DNA of 36,109 nt, from assembly GCF_000002865.3 (NCBI RefSeq), contig NW_001865051.1:185624-221732 (forward strand), given 5' to 3'. A model generated the notes under the pieces. That model made no database searches. It saw only the letters and a list, made by a program, of their open reading frames with translations, and was not told the DNA's origin. The translations under genes were made by a program, and so were the position numbers. The stretch comes from Monosiga brevicollis MX1. Taxonomy: Eukaryota; Opisthokonta; Choanoflagellata; Craspedida; Salpingoecidae. This document shows positions 3,928-22,739 of the stretch, one piece after another. Positions within the stretch are counted from its first letter, which is position 1, and each line of letters begins with the position of its first letter.

Positions 3928-6900
3928 ATGGCTGAAGCGGTTCAACAAAAGTTGGAAGACCAGGTCGAGGAGCTGCACGACCTGCGGCAGCGCGGCCTGT
4001 TCAGCAAGTCGGAAATTGCGTATGTATTCCTTGACTTTGTGGTGCCTGCCCTTCTTGTAACCCTTGTCACGCCCACAGTCCTGCCCCCCACTCCCTTGTT
4101 CCCCCTTCTCTCACCTCGCACTCGCTGTGCTTCTCCCTCTCTTCCTTATTAGTGAGATCGTGAAGCGTCGACGTGCCTTTGAGTATGCGCTGCGCCGCCG
4201 TACCTCCCGCAAGGTCGACTACCTCAAGTACATCGAGGTATGTCTCGATGCGATGTAAATCTGGCCCCTACTCGCCTCCATAGGGCCGAGCCGCTGCCTG
4301 CCGCACCCCATCCAACAGCTTTCATCGGCTCTGCGCTTCGCACACACATCTATCCCACCTCTTGAATAGTATGAGCGTAATGTTGACGCCTTGCGCGTGC
4401 GCCGCAAGTCAACTCGCCAACGCCGAGACCTCAACGGCGTCGCCGATCACACCATCATCCGCCGTGTCATGAACCTGTACCGCAAAGCCCTCGAAAAGTT
4501 CAAGGTGAATTGCTGCTCTTGTATTGTAGGCCCACTCTCAGCATTTGACTCGCCCTCTGTGGGTCTCCGCTCAAATCTTGTATCCCGTGACAGGGTGACC
4601 TCGAGCTCTGGCTCAGCTACTTTGACTACTGCGAGGAACAGCGCTCGTACAAACAGCTGAATCGCGTCATGGCCAACTGCCTCCAATTTCACAGCAACGT
4701 TCCTGCCATTTGGATCCGGGCCGCCAAGCTCGAATTTGAAGTCAACAAGAACATCGGTGCCGCACGCGTCTTCCTCCAGCGCGGTCTGCGGTCAGTCTTG
4801 CTCCTTCCGTGAGCTCGCATTTCAAGCTTTATGTGCCACTCTGAGTCTGGTGTGCAAGAGCACTCCCCCCACATCTCACTACAACTCTGTCTTTGCAATA
4901 CCTTTCCGGTCTTTTGACAGCATTAATCGTGAGAGCCCCGAGCTCTGGGTCGAGTATCTACGTCTCGAGCTCTTGCATTGGGAAATGATGAGCCGTCGTG
5001 CAGCCATCCTCGGTGTTGCAAAGGATGAAGATAATCTAAACGGACAGGTGGTTGAGGGCCAGCATCTCGCGCGTGACGCCGAATTGCTCGATGTGCCTGA
5101 TCTCAACCAAGAAGAGGAGGTTGAAGAAGTGCAATTGGTTCACGATGATGAGCGTGCCGAAGCCCTTGACATGCTCAGAGCCGTCACAACCGATGCTGAT
5201 TCGCATTCATCCATGACCGTGACAGGTGCGCTCACCATCCCCTGGCTTGCTTGCTTGCGCTTCAGAGGGCTATTACTCTTGTTCCACCAGCTCGCGTGCT
5301 CTGACCTAAGGACTGGATAGATGCGGCTACTCCTGGCTCGATGCAACACGAAATCACCGAGAGAGCCAAGGCCTATGGTGGTGACAGCTTTCTTTCAGGC
5401 CTCGTGCCCCGTCTGGTGTGCCTCAGCGCCCTTCGTACGTTGCGCTCTATTGACTCTGCGTCGTTACCACAAGTACGCCGTCAGCCTCATTTCCAGAGGA
5501 CCCATGTACCGGTTTGCCAGGCGCGCAAAACTATGGACCTGACTTGGCGCAAGACCTGCTCAACGTCTTTGTCCTCTTCCGTGACACTGCACAATCTCGC
5601 AACATGGTGAGTTCAAAGCAGAACTCAAATCTGTTTCTCCTTTCCTCACGGTCACCTTCATGCTTGGCTCAAAGGTTTAACACCCACACACCCACACACA
5701 CTCTGCTTCTCACCTGCGCTTTGTGGTGTCTTTAGGTGTACAACCTTCTCAGCGAGCGACTGAAGGCAGGCCACACCACCGATGTTGTTGGTACTCTCTC
5801 CGTCCTGGCCAATCGTAGCCTGACCGAGAGCCGAGCCCCCGGTGAGTTGGCATTATCGGCGAAGAGGCAGCGCTTCTCTGAGCCCATATCCTGGTCTTTC
5901 TCATTCGACCATGCCAATCCAGATATCGCCGCTCCTACGCACCAGGAGCAGGCTGCATTGCACGGCAAGGCATTGACCTATCTGACACAGCACCGTGATC
6001 AAGTTCCCGAGCACAGCCCGCAAGCCTTGCTGGCTGCTATCCGCTTCCTGCGTCACCAGCTCGAAACTCAAGCCAAGGAACATGTGCGTTGCAGTGAGCC
6101 ATCTCATCGTCTTCTGATCCGAGCTCACCTCCGATCCTTGGTGGGAACTGGCCCGTTTATCTCGGCCTTCCTCATGCTCTGTGCTTGTGGATCTACTCTG
6201 CTTAGCGGGAAACGCTGATGGCGCACGTGACAACAACCACGGCCGCGCTGCGTGCGACCTTGGCGGCTACTGACGCAGAAGGCACGCCAAGCAAGAAGAA
6301 GCGGCGTGCCACCACCGCCCCAGCCTGGCCCTTGGAGCAAGCGTGCAATTTGGTGCAAGGCGCTTGCGCACTAGCAGAGACCTTGGTGTTTTTGGAGCAA
6401 GCCAGTCAAGCATACACTTTAGCTCAGGATGCCCTTTCTTTTGCCCATTCTCTGCCTACTACCAAGCGTGCTAAGACCGAACTCAGCACGGATTGGTCCG
6501 ACAGTCTCGATAAGTTGGTCCTCCTAAGCCTGCAACTCCAGGTCCTGGTGGCACCTACCGTGCCGGATGTCAGCGCCTTTGACCGAGCGCGGGCGCTCGC
6601 AAGCCGTGAGGTACGCTTTGAAATCCGACTGTTTCTTCCAGAGCTATGGTGTGCTGCTGGTCTCGTGCCTCGTTAACCTTTTTGGCTCTGATCCGTGTCA
6701 TGATCAGGTGCAAGCACAAATCTGGGACCTCGAGCTATCCCAGCGCTTGGCTGACCAGGATGATGCTGCCGTCGCCTCTGTTTATCGGTATGTGTGTGTT
6801 GCCCTCAACTTGATTCTTCTGCTATGTGGCTGTGGTACACTGACACCATTTTGGCTCGACTCGACGGTGTCGTAAACAGGCGCGCACTTTTGCAACTGGA

Positions 6901-7499
6901 CATCCTGAAACCCGCTGAGCGGGCTGTTTTGGCCAGCCGGGCGTTGAACGTGGTGGCGTGGCAATCCATTGCAGAAGCCCGCCAACTCTTTGACTGGTCC
7001 GTCTCACGTGTCCGTCTCCTCCTGATGGAACAAACTCGGCCTGCTTGCTCACTGAATGCACACGATAGGATCTTCAAAGAAACCGGCTTGGCCGAGTGGT
7101 CCTTTATTCGCACCATGGTGGGTCTGGAGAGCAGCTTGCCTCACGTTGATACCGAACGCATGGTCAAGCTGTTTGAGCTGGCTGTCCGTCATTTCGGCAA
7201 CAGCAACACGGATGTGTGGGTGGCATATATCCAGTGGAAGCTTGCTGGTGGTGATGGCGCTGACGCCAGGTGCGTGCGTGTTTTGTGTGGGTCAATAAAG
7301 CCAGACCCAAACCCCAAAATGCTCGCCTCGCCTCTTGTTGTTTGTGCCGCCGAGCTTGTCTTGTCCTCATCTGGCCCTCCGCTCTGGTGTTTTGGCTTGC
7401 ACAACGTGTAGTCAGCTGCATTTTCGTGCAGTCAAGGCACTTGACGATCCGGCCGAGTTTATTGCCCGTGCCCGCGGCGCACTGAATGGTCATGCTTGA
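3928..7499 (+). CDS. UTP6: U3 snoRNA-associated protein 6 (UTP6), SSU processome
   Basis: Component of the UTP-B subcomplex of the small-subunit processome, needed in the nucleolus for 18S rRNA maturation. Fourteen exons join in frame to about 723 residues: 3928-4019, 4153-4237, 4370-4504, 4594-4790, 4921-5225, 5321-5434, 5521-5606, 5736-5841, 5923-6083, 6206-6610, 6708-6787, 6880-6996, 7069-7269, 7412-7499. The N-terminus (MAEAVQQKLEDQVEELHDL, then RGLFSKSEIAEIVKRR) matches the conserved UTP6 start. HAT-type repeats follow, for example LELWLSYFDYCEEQRSYKQL, PAIWIRAAKLEFE and ESPELWVEYLRLEL. The C-terminal repeat (MVKLFELAVRHFGN...DVWVAYIQWKL) also matches the family. The product is longer than human UTP6 (about 597); the extra length lies mainly in an acidic segment encoded by 5080-5225 and a KKKRR-bearing segment near 6290-6310. 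Introns are 75-150 bp with ordinary GT-AG ends. Confidence 0.93.

Positions 7500-7746: not shown

Positions 7747-7748
<2 letters not shown>

Positions 7749-7811
<63 letters not shown>
7749..7811. repeat. (CA)n microsatellite
   Basis: Perfect CA dinucleotide tract between the convergent 3' ends of UTP6 and the sirtuin gene. No gene is seen in the rest of 7500-7976. Confidence 0.97.
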
Positions 7812-7976: not shown

Positions 7977-8972
7977 TTACAAGAGCTCGTCCAGGGTTCG
8001 CAACACGTCATCGCAGGTGGCGCGCACGAGCAAGTCGGCCTGGTCATCATAAGGAGTGGGCTGAAGATTCACGATACAAACGCGTGCTCGAGTAGGAGAG
8101 GCAGTGAGGGCGGTATTCGTGTCTCTGCCCTTGGCACGGCGTCGGGCACCTCGCAGGCGAGGGCGAGGGCGATTTTGGACCAGGAGGCCGGCGGCTGGCT
8201 CGACGGCTAGCGAGGTGCCGAGTGCAATGCGCAAGTCCGAGGCTCCAAAATGGGCCTCTGCTCGCTCAAAGTCCTGAGCAGGCAAATCTTCGCCAAAGTG
8301 GATAATGTTATCGCGCAAGCGCCCTGAACAGTCGGCTACCTCGCAGTGGCGGCCCGTCTCGTGGTCCACGGCAGTGGCGAGCTCAACCTCATAATCTCGA
8401 AAATAGGTGGCGCCACAGCGCTCGCACACCTCCTTGAAAAGGTTGCCATGGAGCTCCGAAACTTTGGACATGGGAAAGCCGCTGCGGGCCGTGAGGTTAT
8501 CATAGTTTTGTGTCGCCAGCCAGTCGACGTGGCCTTTGCGCTCGAGGGCCACCAGTGCCTCGTGCGCCGCGGTTGGGGCCAGGGGTTCGGTCGAGGCAGC
8601 CTGACGTTTGGCCCGCTTGGTCCAGAGGCCTCCGGCGCCACGAAACGTGGGAAGAACGGGGGCAGAGATGCCAGCGCCAAGCAGAATACATGGTCGCTGT
8701 GCCTCTTGGAGCCAGCGGGCCAGCTGCTCAACCTTGGGCCGCCACTCCGCTTCCGGTTCCCGAATCTCTGGCACCTCGTCCTCTGCATCACGCCACTCAT
8801 CCAGAGCAACCGTACCCTTGAGGTATCGAGCAGCCACCCACTGTGGCTCAGCCCCATCCATCCATGAGCACAAGTACTCCTTCTTCCTTCCCCGCCCCCG
8901 CTCCTCCAAGATCCGATCAATATCCGCCTGCTCCTCCGCCGCCGCCTCCTCCACCGCCGCCTCCTCCGCCAT
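7977..8972 (-). CDS. Chromodomain-sirtuin fusion, SIRT6/7 class
   Basis: Predicted NAD-dependent protein deacylase of sirtuin class IV, encoded in one exon of 331 residues although its neighbours have 9-14 exons. I chose the ATG at 8972 (MAEEAAVEE); a start at 9014 would add 14 residues. Sirtuin signatures: GAGISAPVLPTFRG and GLW (NAD-binding Rossmann), TQNYDNL, the catalytic His in SELHGN, zinc ligands CERC and a CEVADC pair, NIIHFGEDLP, ALGTSL, and a C-terminal IVNLQPTPYDDQADLLV. The IHFGE and VNLQ.TP.DD motifs and the TGRHC spacing favour SIRT7/SIRT6. Before the catalytic domain, residues about 16-58 (DRILEERGRGRKKEYL, SWMDG, PQWV) look like a chromodomain, closest in my recollection to the chromodomains of chloroplast SRP43. 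Its first cage aromatic is not obvious, so methyl-lysine binding is uncertain. A basic Arg-rich insert (RPRPRLRGARRRAKGR) near residue 270 could be a nuclear localisation signal. Confidence 0.88.
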   Translation of the reverse strand: MAEEAAVEEAAAEEQADIDRILEERGRGRKKEYLCSWMDGAEPQWVAARYLKGTVALDEWRDAEDEVPEIREPEAEWRPKVEQLARWLQEAQRPCILLGAGISAPVLPTFRGAGGLWTKRAKRQAASTEPLAPTAAHEALVALERKGHVDWLATQNYDNLTARSGFPMSKVSELHGNLFKEVCERCGATYFRDYEVELATAVDHETGRHCEVADCSGRLRDNIIHFGEDLPAQDFERAEAHFGASDLRIALGTSLAVEPAAGLLVQNRPRPRLRGARRRAKGRDTNTALTASPTRARVCIVNLQPTPYDDQADLLVRATCDDVLRTLDELL

Positions 8973-9121: not shown

Positions 9122-9302
9122 AGTGGCAAGTGGCAAGTGGCAGTGGCAGGTGGCAGTGGCAAGTGGCAAGTGGCAAGTGGCAAGTGGCAAGTGGCAAGTG
9201 GCAAGTGGCAAGTGGCAGTGGCAGGTGGTAGGTGGCAGTGGCAGGTGGTAGGTGGCAGTGGCAAGTGGCAGTGGCAGTGGCAGTGGCAAGTGACAAGTGG
9301 TG
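9122..9302. repeat. AAGTGGC / AGTGGC minisatellite
   Basis: Tandem array of 6-7 bp units (AGTGGC and AAGTGGC, with AGGTGGT variants) over about 180 bp. It sits between the divergent starts of the sirtuin (8972) and ACSF3 (9539). Open frames across it (repeated GKWQVA or CHLPLA) are artefacts of the repeat. Confidence 0.93.
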
Positions 9303-9538: not shown

Positions 9539-12256
9539 ATGTTCTTGCTCTGGCGTGCAGCTCGGCCCCTGCCGACAGCAGCAGCGCAAGGCTTGTGGGC
9601 TGGCATCCGCACCCGCGCCAGCCATGTCATACCCGAGCATCCTAATCTATGTGAGGCTCTGCAGCCATATTTCTCCCACCCCATCGACGTCCTACAGCGT
9701 CCATCGGTGATTGATGTGGGCTCAGAGGGTCGCCATGAGGCAAGCCATCTTCAGATTCAATACCGCGCGCTGCAAATTGCCCGACAACTCACCAGCGAGG
9801 CCACCTCGGTTCAGAACAGCAGCGTGGGCTTTTTGTTGGCGCCCAACTCCAATTGGCTGGCAACCCTCATTGGCATCTGGCTCGCCGGCAAAGTGGCTGT
9901 GCCCATGTGCAGCAAGCACTCGGCCAATGAATTGGCCTATGTCCTTGAGGATGCCCACGTCGACACTGTCATTCACGATGCCACCAGCCAAGAGCACCTC
10001 CAAGCCGCCCTACAGTCACACCCCGTTGAACACGTCCTGGATGCACAACATCTCATGTCGTTTATTCAAAACGAGCCCCAGTCTGACGCGCTGCATGCCG
10101 CCGTCCAACGTGAGCTAGACAGCGTGCCAGAAGTCTCACAGGGCGATGGCGCCCTGGTCATTTACACCTCGGGCACCACATCCCTGCCCAAAGGTACCCT
10201 CTCTCGCTTGGCCAATTTTTGAAGCAAAGTGCACTGATACACAAAAGCCTTCTCACCAAAGCCTTCGACTCCTCTTTCCCTCATTATCTCCCTTCCTGCA
10301 ACCTTGCACTCTACTCTGACCTGTGGTCAACAATGCCCGCAGGCGTACTGCACACGCACTTCAGTCTTGCCAACTTGGTTGGCAACTTGGTTTCCGCCTG
10401 GGAATGGACCAGCCACGATCGCATCATGAATTTCCTACCCCTTCATCACGTGCATGGCATCATCAACGTTGTCGCCTGTGCTGCCCTCTCGGGAGCCACC
10501 CTCGAGATGTATCCAGGATTCTCTGCCCCAAACGTTTTTGACCGGTATGCTCGCCCAGTCGCCAAATGCCCTGCTGATTTTGGCAGTGTGCTTCTGGGGA
10601 CAGCGGCCAGACTGATCGTGTGAATCACCACCACCTGCTAGACTCCGCACCAATGTGTCCAAGACCCCCGATCGGACGACAGACATGACGCTGCTGATGG
10701 CCGTGCCCACAATCTACAGCAAGCTGCTGCAGGAATACGAACGCCGCCCCGAGTGAGTCGTGACGCTCCCAGCCTCGATACCGTTGTCAAGAACCAAACG
10801 TGACTCAAAGCATCCGTGTGCAGCTTGCTTGGTGCTACACATTGTATCAGGCGTTTTCTAGGGCGGCTCATCCAAGGCTACTGTTTTGCGTAGGTCAGAA
10901 CAGGCTGAGTTTCGAGCTGGGTGCCGCGATCTGCGCCTGACCGTCAGTGGCTCAGCAGCTCTGCCCACTCCTGTCCTGGAACGCTTTCGCAAAGTGTCGG
11001 GTCATACCCTGCTTGAACGCTACGGCATGACTGAGATTGGCATGGCGCTCGGAAATCCCCTTCACGGCGAGCGCATTCCCGGCGCCGTCGGTCAGCCCTT
11101 TCAAAACGTCGTGGTCAAGGTGCGGCTGCCGCATACGCACGAGCGTTCTTTAGCCTTGTTTTCAAAAGCATCTGTTCCGCCCACGCAACATCCTCACAGT
11201 CTGAGCCGACCTCTTAATCTGCTCTTGAACGCGGCTGGGCCGGTCCGTTGCTGTCATTTAGCTGGCTGGGGACAGCGGAGACGCATTTTATGACCGCTCA
11301 GCTTGCGAAGAGGAGCCCGAACCGGCACCATCGGTATGCGGCGGTTCTTGCTCATTGCGTCGCCGCGTAGCGCCTGTGCACAGGCGTGCAGTTCCACTCA
11401 TGCACCACTGCTCTCAGATTGCGGCCGAGGGCGAAATTTGCATCAAATCACACACCATGTTTAAGGAGTACCTGAACAAGCCGGATGCCACCGATGAATC
11501 TTTCGACACTGAAGGTTGGCTCTACGCTGCACTCACCTCGATGACCGTACCGCACGAAAAGAGCCCTGGCCTTACCTCCATGCTACCGTGCGACGTGCCG
11601 TGGCACAGGCTTTTTCCGTACGGGGGACATTGGCCGTTATGACCCACAAAAGCAGACCTACAGCATTTTGGGCCGGGCTTCACAGGACATTATCAAGACT
11701 GGTGGATTCAAGCTGTCCGCGCTAGAAATTGAGCGCATTCTTCTGGCGCACCAAGCCATCAGCGACGGTGCCATTGTCGGCGTTGACGATGAAACCTGGG
11801 GTCAACGCGTCGTAGCCGGTCGGTTGGCGCTGGCGCCACTACCCCTCATCGCGCTGATAGAACCCATGCATCAGGCTTGACCTCCACTCATCCTCGTGGG
11901 TTCCTTCTCACCGACCTTTTGACGGTTGCTGGCTGGCACTGCTGGTTGGAGTAGTGGTTGTATTCAAGGAGGGCGCGGATCCCCTGACCCTAGAAGCATT
12001 GCGTGACTTCATGGGCACTGAGCTCGCTTCTTACAAACTACCTACTGCTCTCGAGGTCAGTGTCTGAAGCGGTTGCACCTCTGCCCAATCCTTGACTACG
12101 ATTTGATGCCTTGTGTCATATTCAAGCTCATTTTCAATGACATGACTTTCAATCGTGTGTCATCAGGTTCTGCCTGAGCTCCCTCGCAATGCGATGGGCA
12201 AAGTCAACAAGAAGCAGCTTGCCCAGACGCTGCAGCAGGGCGCCACAGCAGCTTGA
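9539..12256 (+). CDS. ACSF3: Malonyl-CoA/acyl-CoA synthetase ACSF3, mitochondrial
   Basis: ATP-dependent acyl-CoA synthetase; ACSF3 orthologues activate malonate (and methylmalonate) in mitochondria to feed mitochondrial fatty acid synthesis and lysine malonylation. Nine exons: 9539-10193, 10343-10544, 10642-10752, 10894-11119, 11262-11333, 11418-11514, 11609-11818, 11955-12055, 12167-12256, joining in frame to 587 residues (human 576). I chose the ATG at 9539 because [11 protein letters not shown]... followed by Arg and Ala reads as a mitochondrial presequence; an upstream in-frame ATG exists at 9395. Motifs: [11 protein letters not shown] (split by intron 1), [39 protein letters not shown] (almost identical to ACSF3), [27 protein letters not shown] and, at the C-terminus, the catalytic Lys in [13 protein letters not shown]. 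Exon 5 (24 residues) is acidic and low in complexity. Confidence 0.95.
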
Positions 12257-16036: not shown

Positions 16037-19000
16037 ATGGCGGGCCCCAAGATGCCACCTACCCGTGTAGCTGCCTGGGTCTTGGTTGGCACGCTGTTTT
16101 ATCTAACCACCGTTGTCCCGGCAAGAGCGACGAGTTCCAGTGCACGGGAGCAACCTTTGGCCATTGTCAACCCCAGCTTTGAGTTTCCCGTCACCACCGC
16201 CGCCTCAACCACCATCCTCGGGTGGGCCTCGGACACTAAAACTGGCGTTTATCGCGTGCCGACCACCATGTATCCAGGTGGCTTCCAGGTCAGGCGCGAA
16301 CCCCCCCCCTTTTTTTCCCGGGCAGATGAAACCAGGCTCGAGACTCGACATCCATCTCACTCTTGACCTTGGTGCCATATACGTGCACAAGTTGCCCCAA
16401 TGGACCCTTATCATGCCACCGCCAACCTCACTGTAACCAAATTTTCTCCTCGGCTCACCACAGGCTCCGGCTGCTGGGCTCAACATGGCATACATCAGCA
16501 CGGGAGGCGCCATGACCCAGCAAGTGATGCTGGAAGAGCTATTGCCCGGCTGCATCTATACACTGCGTTTGGTTGTAGGCTGGCGAGCCAATCAAGCCAC
16601 CTTCCCCACGATGCGCATCCAGCTCTTGGCCAGCCCCTCTGCCCTTGTACGCTCTTGAACCTGCCTGCCATTCCCCGCTCGCGATTCTCCCGCCTTGCCT
16701 TGTCACGAGTCGACCACCTACCGTGTGATTGTCCCTCATGACTTGCTGCGACTAGATCCTAGCCAATTGCCTTGTCTTGGAGGATCACTTTGAGCAGGCT
16801 GGCACCATGATGGATGTGGCTTGCAGCTTCGATGTCCTCCCCAACTCAACCGTCCTGAGCCAGAACCTGATGATCCGCATGTCCGTTGATGGCGGCTATG
16901 CCAATGCGCCACAAGCCAATGTGGATGCGGTGCGCCTCTTGCGCGCGTGCCAGCACCTAACGACAGCCAGCCCCACCACCTTGCTGCCAGGTGGCCTGGG
17001 TGGGGACTCGCCTCAAACCGCCACTCCCATCTTGATTGAGGACGACGACGAGCTTGCTAATGACGAAACGACGCCAATGACAGCAACCACAACCGATGAA
17101 CCCCACACGACTGCTGAGGACGATAGCTGGTTCCTGTCCACCACGGCAGACCCTAGCACGACGGACCTGCTGGAGACCACGGTGGAGGAACTTATCAGTA
17201 CTACGGCGCCAGATGATGTCGACGGGGCTCCAGCTCCCCTACCTACTCACCCCATTGTCATCGGTTCTGAGATGCCGGGGCTTCTCAACCCCAGCTTTGA
17301 GCTACCCGTCCTTCCGCCGGGTGTCGTGGCTCTTTCGCTTGTGCAAGATTGGGCCAGCAGTGGTGATGTCTTCACCTATCGGCCCGATGCAGGCATCCAG
17401 CTTGCTGCCACACTTGGCGAGGGATCACAGGTCGCTCTCATGACCGGAAACAGCCGCCTCAAGCAGATTCTCGATACCACACTTCAAGGAAATTTTCGCT
17501 ATCAACTGACCCTCAACGTCTCTGGATGGCTCGGGCGCACCGCCATGCCGGACGTCTTGGTGCAGCTGGCTACCTCCAGTCCAGCTTATTTGCTGGCCAG
17601 CCAACTTTTGACGATGGACGATGCCCAACCCTTGGGCACTCCCGTGCGGGTTAACTTTGACGTACAGGTGCCGCGCCACCACGTGGCCATAGGCAGCCCA
17701 CTTGCCCTCACCATTACTGCCGGGGATTCCCTCAGCTTTGCGTTTGTGGATGCGATCGAGCTGCGTGGGCTTGCTTGTGATTCGTTTGCTGCTTGCCCAT
17801 CAGTCGTCACTACCACCACCACATCCACTACATCCTCCACATCGTCCACAACTACCTCAACCTCAACCACCAGCAGCTCCACGTCGACGACAACAACATC
17901 CACCAGCACAACAACATCTGTCACGTTGACAACCACATCGACCACCAGCACCACCACAACCTCCACGCTCACAACCACAACCATCACTTCAACCACAACC
18001 TCCACCTCAACAACAAGCACTACTTCCACCACTTCAACTACTTCGACCACTTCGACCACTTTGACTACTTCAACCACTTCGACTACTTCAACTAGCTCGA
18101 CCACTTCGACCACTTCGACTACTTCCACCACCTCAACGACTTCAACGACTTCGACCACAACCACGCTGGCTCCGTAAGTCATCTGCCTTTGGCTACCTGT
18201 CTCCCATGTGTCCTGTGTATGACTTCTGGCCTGATGTTGACCATGCCACTCTTGCGTCCGTCTCTCTAGAACCATTGGCCCTTGGTTTGCGGCTCTCAAC
18301 AACCCCAGCTTCGAGCGCCCCGTCACGCCGCATCTTGAAGGCGCATTCGCCGCACAGGCTACAGGTTGGAGCATTGCGGGTGTGGGTGGCGTCTTCCGCA
18401 CCCCTGCCGCGGCCTTTCCATCTCAGCCGCCGGTCATGAACGGGGCCCAAACTTTATACCTGGGCCAGGGCGCCTGCATTGAGCAAACACTTGATGAGGT
18501 GTACCTGCAGCCGGATACAGCCTATACCATGATGGTGGGCGTTGGCCATCGCAGTGACCGAGCCTCGTTTGCTGGTGTCGAATTACAAATGCTGGCTGCT
18601 GATGATAAATCAGTCTTGAGAACGCGTATATTGCTCACGATGGAACCAGGTCACTTTCGCGATGCGCAGCTCAAGTTTGAGCTTCTAGCAAGTGACCTGG
18701 ACGAAAACTCTCAAGCCGCCACCGAACTGGATACCTTGGCACTACTGGGTCAGGGCCTCACCGTGCGAGCGTGTGCATTGCTCAGTTTTGACCAAGAAGC
18801 CCATGTGCTTTTGGACAATGTTCGAGTTTTGATCACACATGTGGGGGCCAGTGCACCCACGCCCCTTCCACCCACGGGCTCGGCCACGACCACAGCGACA
18901 ACAACGACAACTACGACGACAACTACGACAACGACGACAACAACTACGATAACGACGACTACAACTACAACTACAACTACGACGACGACGACGACGACTC

Positions 19001-22000
19001 ATGAGCCAACCACTTCAGTTGAGCTGTCTGATCTCACCACAACTGACGAATTACTACAGACAACAACTGAAGCCCCCATGGTGACTCCCAGCGAGACCAC
19101 CACCATCACTACCACGACAAAGGCTCGGACCAGCCCTTCCTCCACGACCGGTGCGGATGGAGCTGGTGGAGCTACTCCCGCGCCATCCTGTCGTCTGGAA
19201 TGTACGGCAGCCCAAGCTTCTTTTAATTCGCCTGCACCATTGGACCTTGGAGCTACACCCGCTCGGGCCCGCGACGCCGTGGTTGCTGACCTCAATGGGG
19301 ATGGTGCATTGGACATTGTCACCATTCACAAAGAACAAGACTCGGTGATTGCTTTTGTCAATCAAGGAGGCTTTATGTTTCGACGGCTGGTCGTGGAGAC
19401 AGCAAACCTGAAGCCTTGGGCGGTTCTTGCACGCAATCAAACGATTCTGGTTGCTTCAAAGTCTGAAGGCGGGCTTGTTCAATACAACCTCGATGCCACT
19501 GCCCACAGGGTTGTAGAGCGCCAGCGCACGCCGATGCCTGGCAAGCCGTTAAGCTTGGCCTGGCTGCAGTTTGATGCAGATGGCATAATGGACACTGTGG
19601 TTGGTGATCGGGCTGAAGAAGCGCTTTATGTGATTCCTAGCATGCTGGGCGTACCCGTTCAGCTTCCCGTGTCGGTTGATCGTGTCATCAACCTCGCTGT
19701 TGGTGACATTAACGGTACGTACTTTTACACGCGGTCACAGTCCTGTCGATCCCATCATGATTAGGAAAATTCTCACGTGTTGTTTGTACGCTTGATCTCT
19801 GCCTTGCTCCCTCATCACGATTCGGGCCTTCGATCGCGTGCTGGTGTGTAGAGGACGGCATGGATGACATTCTGGTGGTGGAGCGAAACGGCATCCGTCG
19901 CCTGGTCGGCAATCTCGCTTTGCGCAGCTACACCGCAACCACGCTGGTGCAAAACACAGCCGACCAGCTGGTCAACGCGTTTTTGGTTGACATTGATGGT
20001 CAGTACCATGGTCGACTTTGGCGCACAGCACAGCGTAGCCTTGTTTATCCCACTGACAAAATGTCCTGCTCCCGTGTACGCTTAAATGCACGGCCTTACT
20101 TCTGTTTCTGTCTTGGCTACTGGGCGCCCTATCAGGCGATACCAATCTCGATGCGGTTTGGGTTTCGCAGACAGGCGCGCTATCAATGCTGCGCAATGCC
20201 ATGACGTCCTCAGGCATTGACGAGATTCTCCTGTACCCTGGCAACAGCCGGTGGAACATCAAGAGCGCGACTGTGGCAGATCTCAGTGCAGACGGCACAC
20301 CCAACTTCTTTCTTGGACAAGCTGATGGCGATATCATCCATCTAACCCAGATTGGCACGATTATCTTCGACCGTGTGGGCAAGACCAGCGGAGCTGGTGA
20401 GCGGCTGGAATCTTTCCACCTCGCCGATCTTGATGGGGATGGTGACTTGGACTTGCTCACGACATCACGTGACGCCGGAGTGTTGGTGCACGTGAGTAGC
20501 TGCTGCGATGCCGGCAACGTCTTTCCGACGCTGGCGAGCTCCACCACTACCAAAGCGCCGACTGCGGCCCCCGTGAGCACGACTGTCGCCACCTCTTTCA
20601 CCACCAAGACCCCGACGACCGGCGATTTGCCAGCGACCACAACGTCAGAGGTCATGACCACCACTCCGACTGCAAGTGACGGGTGCGAGGAAACTTGGCA
20701 ATTCTTCTTGGATGCCGGTGTCGCGGGACAGTCTAAACTAGTCGGCAATTGGACTGAGGTTGAGGCCGTCGAGGCTGTGGGAGACACGTATTACCAGGCA
20801 CCTGGCCGCTTTGCACCCAATTTGTATGCAGACTTCATCCTCACCTACATGCCTGTGGGCTACTATCACTTGGCAGCTTCTCATCAGGCAGCGGTCGCTC
20901 ACAGCTCGGGGGCCAGCTGGCAGCTGTGGCGAAACGATGCCCGCGTGACCACTCAGACTATCAACCAGCAGATGAACCCTTCTCCCGATGGCTTTGTTCC
21001 TCTGGATGAGATGGGTGTTGTTTACGTCGATGGCGTGTCAACATTGGCCCTCCGCCTGTCAACGCTCTATTCAGCCCCAGGCTTGGTGGTGGCCGATGCA
21101 GTACGCATGACGCATTGTGACAGCTTTGTCCCTGTCACGACGAGCACCATCACCACGGTGCCTGTGGTTACCACAACGCCAACGTCAGCAGCGACGACTG
21201 CAACAACCACGACAACCACGACGACCACGACCACGACCACGACAACAACAACTACTACGACAACAACTACAACAACTACAACTACAACTACAACTACAAC
21301 CACAACCACAACGACCACATCCGAAAGCGTAGATGCGTAAGTTGGCTGTATCATGCTCGAGTCCCTGCTTTAACAATGGAGTTGTACACTTCAAATTTGC
21401 AACCAGCCTTTGATCGCTCATTCGTGTGCGCGGGCCTGTCTGCTGACTCACACATGCGCTCGCTTCTGGGATTTAGTGCGGGCTTTGCCTACGACACCAT
21501 GGCTGTGATACCCGGGTCCTTGCCTCGGCCCAGCCTGAGTGCCTACGGTGCTGTCATTGTGCGCCTCAATTGCGGTGGCAGTCGATACATCGATCCAGCC
21601 GGGAACACGTGGCAGGTAAAGACTTGACTCGGGTGGACTGACGCACCATCGGCTTTTGGGAAAGGATTCGAATCGCTCACAACTTTTGCTGGGACGCTAG
21701 TCGGATGGTCTGTTTAATGGAGGCTTGGAAGCTGTCTCGCCGAGCCAAGCGATTGCACGCACGGTCAACGATGAATTGTATTGGACGGAGCGGTGGCGGA
21801 GTGGCCAGGATGGGCCCCTCGTGTATGAGATCCCGGTTCCAACGGCCGGCCTGTACCACGTGCGTTTACATTTTGCCGAAACCTATGCCCCACATACAAA
21901 CATGGGCGACCGGGTATTCGATGTGCTTCTAGAAAATGCCATTGCTCTCGACGATTTTGACATGCTTGTCGAGACCACGACGACATCGGCTATTCTACGC

Positions 22001-22739
22001 TCCTTTTCGGTGGTGGTGCTGGATGGCGCTTTGACGTTGACCCTCTCACCCATCGTGGACAACACGAAAATCAACGGCATTGAGGTGTACGCAGATATCA
22101 ACATCAACACTGGGGGCGGCGTGAGGTGAGTGCTGCGATGTCATGTACATCTCTTGCTCGCAAACACCAGTGTGCATCGAGCGGTGGCGTAGCTCATGTT
22201 GCGCTGTGGTGGGTGTGACAATCTTGCTTTTGTGGGGGGGGACCCGTAGCTCGACGGCAGGACCTGGCGCATCGGCCGGCCCCGTTATCCACCGGATCAA
22301 TTGCGGTGGCTCGGCCTTTGTACACACGGACGGCAACCTGTGGGGTGCGGACAATTACTTTTCAAATAGCGGTGGCTTTTATCAGATTTCCACCGCTGTG
22401 GCGGGCCATACCAACACCATGTACCAATCAGAACGCTATGGCGCCGTCGGAGGCGCAACCCTCAAGTATGACCTGCCCTTGCCGGCCGGCGAGTACATTG
22501 TTCGACTGCATTTCGCCGAAATCTTTGCAACGGCTGTGGGTGAGCGAGTCTTTGGTGTCAAGGTCCAGGGTACGGTCCTCATGGAAGCCCTAGACCTCGT
22601 GGCCGTGGCGGGACCATTGGTACCCTTTGTGCTGGAACATCGCCTCAACGTAACAAGCACCTCGCTGCGCGTCCGTTTGATGGCGGGTGAGGCAGAGAAC
22701 CCCAAGATCAATGGTATCGAGGTCTTTGCCGTGGCGTGA
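16037..22739 (+). CDS. Giant secreted mosaic protein: NPSFE, VCBS, golvesin-like and malectin modules
   Basis: Predicted secreted carbohydrate-binding or matrix protein of about 1899 residues. Nine exons: 16037-16288, 16464-16646, 16756-18173, 18270-19714, 19852-19998, 20136-21336, 21477-21615, 21701-22125, 22250-22739. A signal peptide (residues about 11-32) is followed by three beta-sandwich-type modules that each begin with an NPSFE motif (VNPSFEFP, LNPSFELP, NNPSFERP). Then come VCBS/FG-GAP calcium-type repeats (DLNGDGALDIV, DLDGDGDLDLL), a golvesin/xanthan-lyase-type CBM (FLDAG...GNWTEVE, GLVVADAVRM) and two malectin domains (VRLNCGG...VRLHFAE...KINGIEVY; HRINCGG...VRLHFAE...KINGIEVF). 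Long Thr-rich linkers, probably O-glycosylated, separate the modules (17808-18170, 18880-19190, 20540-20680, 21125-21325). Introns after 18173, 21336 and 22125 are all phase 2. The stop TGA at 22737 overlaps a perfect donor (GC|GTGAGT), so a further short 3' exon is possible. I see no membrane anchor. Confidence 0.85.
17808..18170 (+). repeat. Thr/Ser-rich low-complexity coding repeat (ACN)n
   Basis: Coding tract of ACN and TCN codons between NPSFE modules 2 and 3 of the mosaic protein. It encodes a mucin-like (T/S)n linker. Antisense open frames rich in Val and Glu are shadows of it. Confidence 0.9.
18880..19000 (+). repeat. Poly-Thr (ACN)n coding repeat
   Basis: Near-pure threonine tract linking NPSFE module 3 to the VCBS repeats. 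Codon usage varies among ACA, ACG, ACT and ACC, which argues for selection on the peptide or old repeat decay. Confidence 0.88.
21190..21325 (+). repeat. Poly-Thr (ACN)n coding repeat
   Basis: Second near-pure threonine tract, ending four codons before the phase-2 intron that precedes malectin module 1. Confidence 0.9.

Follow-up and report, generated by a model that had tools for sequence, protein, structure and literature searches.

A predicted two-domain enzyme of Monosiga brevicollis joining a cpSRP43-type chromodomain to a SIRT6-type sirtuin

The chloroplast protein cpSRP43 has three chromodomains (CD1, CD2 and CD3), and its range is the green lineage. To our knowledge, chromodomains of this type have not been described in any other protein. 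In that chloroplast protein, which carries ankyrin repeats beside its several chromodomains, CD2 and CD3 are described as gripping a ligand arginine in a 'modified cage' made up of Glu, Trp and Asp, with tyrosines of the classical cage replaced at two of these positions (PMC4660199). The arginine is unmethylated and belongs to the ARRK motif of cpSRP54, within PPGTARRKR. According to the same source, the adjacent domain takes part when CD2 and CD3 bind their ligand, and CD2 has a twin cage (F267, Y269 and H304), a second cage that is not conserved in CD3 (PMC4660199).

The human class IV sirtuins reach the nucleosome by other means. In SIRT6, K170, R172, R175 and R178 bind the acidic patch, and these four were mutated together with R220, R231 and R248; three arginines are shown in contact with DNA (PMC10942634). 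According to the same study, vertebrates keep the acidic-patch residues, and the other human sirtuins lack them (PMC10942634). SIRT7 docks by an N-terminal extension that lies as three helices on the nucleosome (PMC11790868). Common to sirtuins in general is an NAD-loop motif, the G-I-P-D-F/Y-R linker, described as about 90% conserved in eukaryotes, and the G60A substitution there shifts human SIRT6 towards long-chain acyl substrates (PMC12051053).

The window analysed here, a stretch of 36,109 nucleotides from the choanoflagellate Monosiga brevicollis, contains on its minus strand an uninterrupted frame (Table 1) that probably encodes a genuine two-domain enzyme, with a predicted chromodomain of the cpSRP43 type, an acidic linker and a predicted SIRT6-type sirtuin. 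One chromodomain is fused to a sirtuin here, unlike the ankyrin and multiple-chromodomain arrangement of cpSRP43, and no Pfam ankyrin match was found in the whole protein. An earlier note, made from the sequence alone, had proposed such a fusion and had suggested that it targets the enzyme to a chromatin mark. We found no description of a chromodomain-sirtuin fusion in the literature searched, which comprised open-licence articles.

Table 1. Features of the chromodomain-sirtuin open reading frame, in window coordinates
Feature	Residues	Position	Strand	Basis or remark
Whole open reading frame	1-331	7977..8972	(-)	331 aa and stop; chromodomain, then SIRT6-type sirtuin, in a single open frame
Ala/Glu-rich start	1-15	8928..8972	(-)	15-18 bp GC-rich tandem repeats, arrays 8924-8971 and 8931-8970
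Predicted chromodomain, cpSRP43 type	14-59	8796..8933	(-)	cpSRP43 3ui2 8.7e-11, 1x3q 1e-7
Candidate cage Glu	E14	8931..8933	(-)	aligned with E318 in CD3 and E268 in CD2 (own count)
Candidate cage Trp	W37	8862..8864	(-)	aligned with W343 in CD3
Candidate cage Asp	D39	8856..8858	(-)	aligned with D345 in CD3, replacing a classical cage tyrosine
Acidic linker	60-92	8697..8795	(-)	runs into SIRT6-like N-terminal segment (VPEIREP..)
Predicted class IV (SIRT6-type) sirtuin	66-331	7980..8777	(-)	
Altered NAD loop	104-115	8628..8663	(-)	APVLPTFRGAGG; SIRT6 alignment
Catalytic His in ELHGN	H175	8448..8450	(-)	translation and SIRT6 alignment
Arg-rich insert	266-291	8100..8177	(-)	mostly absent from human SIRT6; contains GARRR

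The sirtuin core and its departures from human SIRT6

The full protein matches Pfam SIR2 at 3.1e-27, and sirtuin families were its only convincing matches in Pfam and NCBIfam. Weak matches to TPP_enzyme_M (0.038), LexA_DNA_bind (0.075) and Cys_rich_47 (0.15) were disregarded. Among the best 60 of 106 PDB matches, SIRT6 (3zg6, 6.5e-40) stands ahead of SIRT7 (9gmk, 1.1e-33), with bit scores of 140.9 for SIRT6, 120.5 for SIRT7, 78.8 for the best bacterial sirtuin, 66 for SIRT5 and 60.5 for SIRT3, so that the best score over the other classes points to class IV (SIRT6/7) and bears out the assignment of the core in the earlier note. Membership of the sirtuins as such is indicated by the residues kept in the translation and the SIRT6 alignment, which include H175, QN.D (as QNYD), GTSL and the four zinc cysteines C183, C186, C210 and C215. 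We take H175 to be the equivalent of H133 in SIRT6. Human SIRT6, the best solved match, aligns over residues 66-268 and 292-327 and shares VNLQPT, the catalytic histidine and the four zinc cysteines; it has no chromodomain, and its alignment begins only at residue 66 of the choanoflagellate protein.

The NAD loop departs from the general motif. It reads V-L-P-T-F-R, is one residue shorter than that of SIRT6, and has V106 at the position of G60 and T109 at that of D63. The segment PTFRGAGG is most like SIRT5, a class III enzyme (25.3 bits against 13.8 for SIRT6), but this likeness is confined to the loop, and the protein as a whole is much closer to SIRT6 than to SIRT5 (140.9 against 66 bits). 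The motif is a general one and does not define a class. As the core in its entirety is closest to SIRT6, we regard the loop as a variant and not as grounds for exclusion from the sirtuins. Given the effect of G60A on the acyl substrates of human SIRT6, the acyl preference may differ here, and the altered loop suggests that deacylase activity may be changed or weak.

The residues by which human SIRT6 contacts the nucleosome are largely missing. In the SIRT6 alignment, K170 of the acidic-patch loop corresponds to D214, R172 and R175 fall in a gap and R178 corresponds to S216, while R220 and R248 are replaced by acidic residues (E258 and D310, respectively) and R231 is ambiguous, at the edge of the Arg-rich insert. 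Thus six of the seven contact residues are absent and one is ambiguous. The C-terminal domain of human SIRT6 is also absent, since the protein stops at about SIRT6 residue 267 of 355. Conversely, the Arg-rich insert has no more than a short basic stretch as its counterpart in human SIRT6, whose alignment breaks off there. Vertebrates are the group in which the acidic-patch residues are described as conserved, so the choanoflagellate protein may retain an ancestral state instead of having lost or replaced them. SIRT7, the second-best kind of match, provides a precedent in the class for an N-terminal docking add-on, although its extension is helical and not a chromodomain.

The N-terminal chromodomain and its gene

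Residues 1-83 matched seven PDB sequences at E<=10. Five are cpSRP43 (8.7e-11, 5.2e-9, 1e-7, 0.00067 and 0.025) and the other two are unrelated (0.55 and 0.64), so that below E 0.5 only cpSRP43 was recovered; classical chromodomains were absent at E<=10. The reversed segment gave one unrelated match, at 0.73. In comparisons against 5,000 shuffles, residues 16-58, which omit residues 1-15, scored z 16.6 to CD2, 13.4 to CD1 and 5.4 to CD3. The genome has 11 other Chromo matches, and for six of them the z scores of these residues were 1.8, 3.7, 5.3, 0.7, -0.3 and 4.9; the five left out were four of one repeated type (L018, L019, L021 and L023, of the L017 type) and one below the Pfam cut-off (L026). 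Identity to CD2 is 42% (19 of 45 residues). A W-x-D motif is common to this domain and the CD1, CD2 and CD3 pieces, and does not occur in any of the genome's 11 other Chromo matches.

Profile searches place the domain among chromodomains more broadly. A profile built from it and three cpSRP43 pieces retrieved 42 PDB sequences at E<=0.01, of which eight are cpSRP43 (largely by construction) and one is a lectin (presumably a chance match), the rest being CDYL, CDY, CBX, HP1 and one 'Chromo domain protein 1' chain. With hhalign, the domain aligned to a profile of six chromodomains of its own genome at E 7.6e-5, with a probability of only 62. No Pfam Chromo match is listed for either the full protein or residues 1-83, and the trimmed 47-residue domain reached 13.2 bits (E 0.086) against the PF00385 cut-off of 25.1. 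Since CD2 (18.7) and CD1 (20.1) of cpSRP43 also fall below this cut-off, which CD3 passes at 37.6, we do not consider it decisive for chromodomains of this type. The identification of residues of about 16-58 as a chromodomain is confirmed at the level of sequence, far above chance, and so is their likeness to cpSRP43, both of which the earlier note had recognized. By its scores the domain appears to be of the cpSRP43 type, in the sense that it is closer to cpSRP43 than to the other chromodomains tested, namely those of the PDB, a thin sample of eukaryotic chromodomains, and six from its own genome.

The frame lies in the genome, searched as 39.5 Mb in 57 contigs, at C44:193603-194595 with 100% identity (stop codon not counted), and its GC3 is alike throughout (chromodomain 0.67, linker 0.70, core 0.68). 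Twelve SIR2 matches were found in that assembly, in five loci. One of the others (C29:159k) is SIRT7-like, with 59.6 bits to SIRT7 and 53.2 to SIRT6 over one exon stretch; this gene (L028 1900-3700, with VVNLQWTP) reads in separate exons, whereas the chromodomain-sirtuin gene runs in one uninterrupted frame. The remaining three (C29:392k, C56 and C52) look like other sirtuin classes, as judged by eye from translated pieces. VNLQPT was found only in the chromodomain-sirtuin gene among the five loci inspected, and a joined CD2-CD3 query of cpSRP43 found this gene only, at 4.7e-6.

We also considered the other chromodomains of the genome as a source of the domain and set them aside, as none of the 11 was found by phmmer with the N-terminal segment against six-frame translations of 28 of 32 loci, a set that excluded three copies of the gene itself and L032 and included 6 kb around the SIRT7-like gene. 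Five of these chromodomains (L017, L018, L019, L021 and L023) are of one near-identical type and are perhaps a chromodomain retroelement family; three of them score 49.1 bits and lie within open frames 500 to 1833 aa long. A green-algal origin of the genome itself was rejected: no match to the light-harvesting family was found in it, and cadherin gave 150 scored matches from 288 candidates, which fits a choanoflagellate.

Around the gene, a perfect (CA)32 dinucleotide run lies just downstream (7748-7811), and an open frame at 6824-7411, tail to tail with the sirtuin frame, has a weak, below-cut-off match to UTP6_C, a U3 snoRNA-associated protein. A minisatellite of AGTGGCA units (9122-9300, about 27 copies) lies in the 566-bp gap to a divergent frame for an AMP-binding enzyme, which starts at 9539. 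A bacterial promoter scan upstream of the sirtuin frame found nothing, which means little in a eukaryotic host. Farther away, frames at 16807-22739 with Thr-rich tracts, weak FG-GAP repeats, an HpiC1-like domain and a malectin domain are perhaps secreted or surface proteins.

The candidate cage and the proposed role of the chromodomain

In the PDB alignment the Glu-Trp-Asp cage positions of cpSRP43 fall on E14, W37 and D39. Because E14 lies inside a run encoded by 15-18 bp repeats it carries little weight alone, and the putative cage rests mainly on W37-x-D39. The CD2 twin cage is not kept (E13, Q15 and Y50 stand in its place), and by the cpSRP43 alignment the classical methyl-lysine cage is not present either. 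We predict from these residues that the chromodomain binds an unmethylated Arg-rich or basic peptide and not methyl-lysine. A point against cpSRP43-like binding is that there is a single chromodomain here, whereas cpSRP43 binds with an adjacent domain. Of the earlier interpretation, the chromodomain, its likeness to cpSRP43 and the class of the sirtuin stand, and the guess that the ligand might be non-methylated is strengthened, with the reservation about E14; targeting to a chromatin mark is not supported as it was stated, as the alignment lacks the classical cage. Chromatin targeting via unmodified basic tails is possible.

Most probably the chromodomain clasps a peptide that is Arg-rich or basic and unmethylated, as cpSRP43 does with the ARRK motif of cpSRP54, and in this way would bring the deacylase to a partner protein or a basic tail. 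Docking in cis could then do the job performed in human SIRT6 by the acidic-patch loop and the C-terminal tail. A two-domain enzyme in which the chromodomain docks the deacylase in this manner has, in our judgement, slightly better than an even chance of being the right description, its expression, fold, binding, ligand, activity and replacement role all being deduced.

Several other explanations must be weighed against this. It is unlikely that the chromodomain is a decayed or neutral appendage, which folds but binds nothing important, or that the enzyme is a weak form; the repeat-encoded start, the missing twin cage and the NAD loop, one residue short and with other residues in place of G60 and D63, in a region whose role is described in PMC12051053, would fit such decay, whereas the 42% identity to CD2 argues for constraint, the catalytic histidine, QN.D and four zinc cysteines are kept, and no other SIRT6-type gene was found in the genome, where three of the four other sirtuin loci were judged by eye only. 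The Arg-rich insert suggests a further idea, that the chromodomain latches onto GARRR of the same molecule or of a second copy, thereby gating the enzyme or forming a dimer. The insert's G-A-R-R-R is close to the cpSRP54 ligand, with Ala at -2 (PMC4660199), and it is here that the SIRT6 alignment is interrupted; but the Arg at +2 of the ligand is Ala in the insert, and ARR[KR] arose by shuffling in 9.7% of 20,000 trials for the insert and 5.9% for the whole protein. Furthermore, a 63-nt in-frame GT..AG stretch (GTGCCC..CTCGAG) overlaps the insert, which could therefore hold an intron, or else act as a nuclear localisation signal. Given the shuffle frequencies and the overlapping stretch, we keep this latch as a rival idea only and lend it little credence.

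A reader of the HP1 kind, which binds methyl-lysine on histone H3 and targets deacylation to heterochromatin, would suit a member of the chromodomain superfamily that retains the cage residue W37, and human SIRT6 is an H3 deacetylase (PMC10942634). However, this domain has Asp as its third cage residue (W-M-D-G), a feature shared with cpSRP43 but not with any of the genome's 11 other Chromo matches, and classical chromodomains are missing from the PDB matches reported above, so we consider this reader improbable. Most improbable is an artefact of the gene model, with the chromodomain and the sirtuin as separate products or the N-terminal part untranslated. The exons of the SIRT7-like gene indicate that splicing is common enough in this genome to matter, but here the homology runs within one open frame, and ahead of the core this frame offers just two ATG codons, M1 and M38, the latter inside the chromodomain, which a start there would split (considering ATG starts only); the next, M168, is already in the core.

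Origin and implications

No relative carrying the domain was found in two scans of viral contigs or, with the chromodomain profile, in prokaryote genomes. The full protein retrieved two prokaryotic loci. One, from Rhizobium (L036), matched residues 61-274 at 23%. The other, from a Sideroxyarcus MAG (L037), matched residues 20-79 at 37% and was rejected, as the matching stretch is out of frame with a 669-aa ORF, which we take to encode a membrane NADH-dehydrogenase or hydrogenase subunit, and shares mainly DEWRDAED. Distant sirtuin matches occurred in 45 of 50,697 phage records, and none covered 80%.

In Monosiga brevicollis, 240 of 405 transferred genes are described as likely algal (PMC4046809); the main text of that article mentions neither 'sirtuin' nor 'chromo', and that of PMC5906684 neither SRP43 nor sirtuin. 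As the domain closely resembles cpSRP43 and algal genes have been described in this organism, an algal source of the chromodomain is possible, as are an older eukaryotic chromodomain lineage and convergence. On a more speculative and unlikely reading, the choanoflagellate joined a cpSRP43-type chromodomain, perhaps from algal prey, to its SIRT6, so that the sirtuin itself came to read basic motifs free of methylation; were the target unmodified H3 ARK9 or ARK27, the reader would see the product of its own enzyme, and deacylation could spread along chromatin without an acidic-patch anchor.

Human SIRT6, with its Arg loop and C-terminal tail, and SIRT7, with its N-terminal helical domain, carry different nucleosome add-ons, and a relative with a peptide-reading domain in place of the human SIRT6 contacts would suggest that docking modules are exchangeable in class IV sirtuins. 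The chromodomain-sirtuin would be a small, testable reader-eraser protein near the root of the animals, and it bears on whether the arginine-holding chromodomain arose in a plastid protein or is older.
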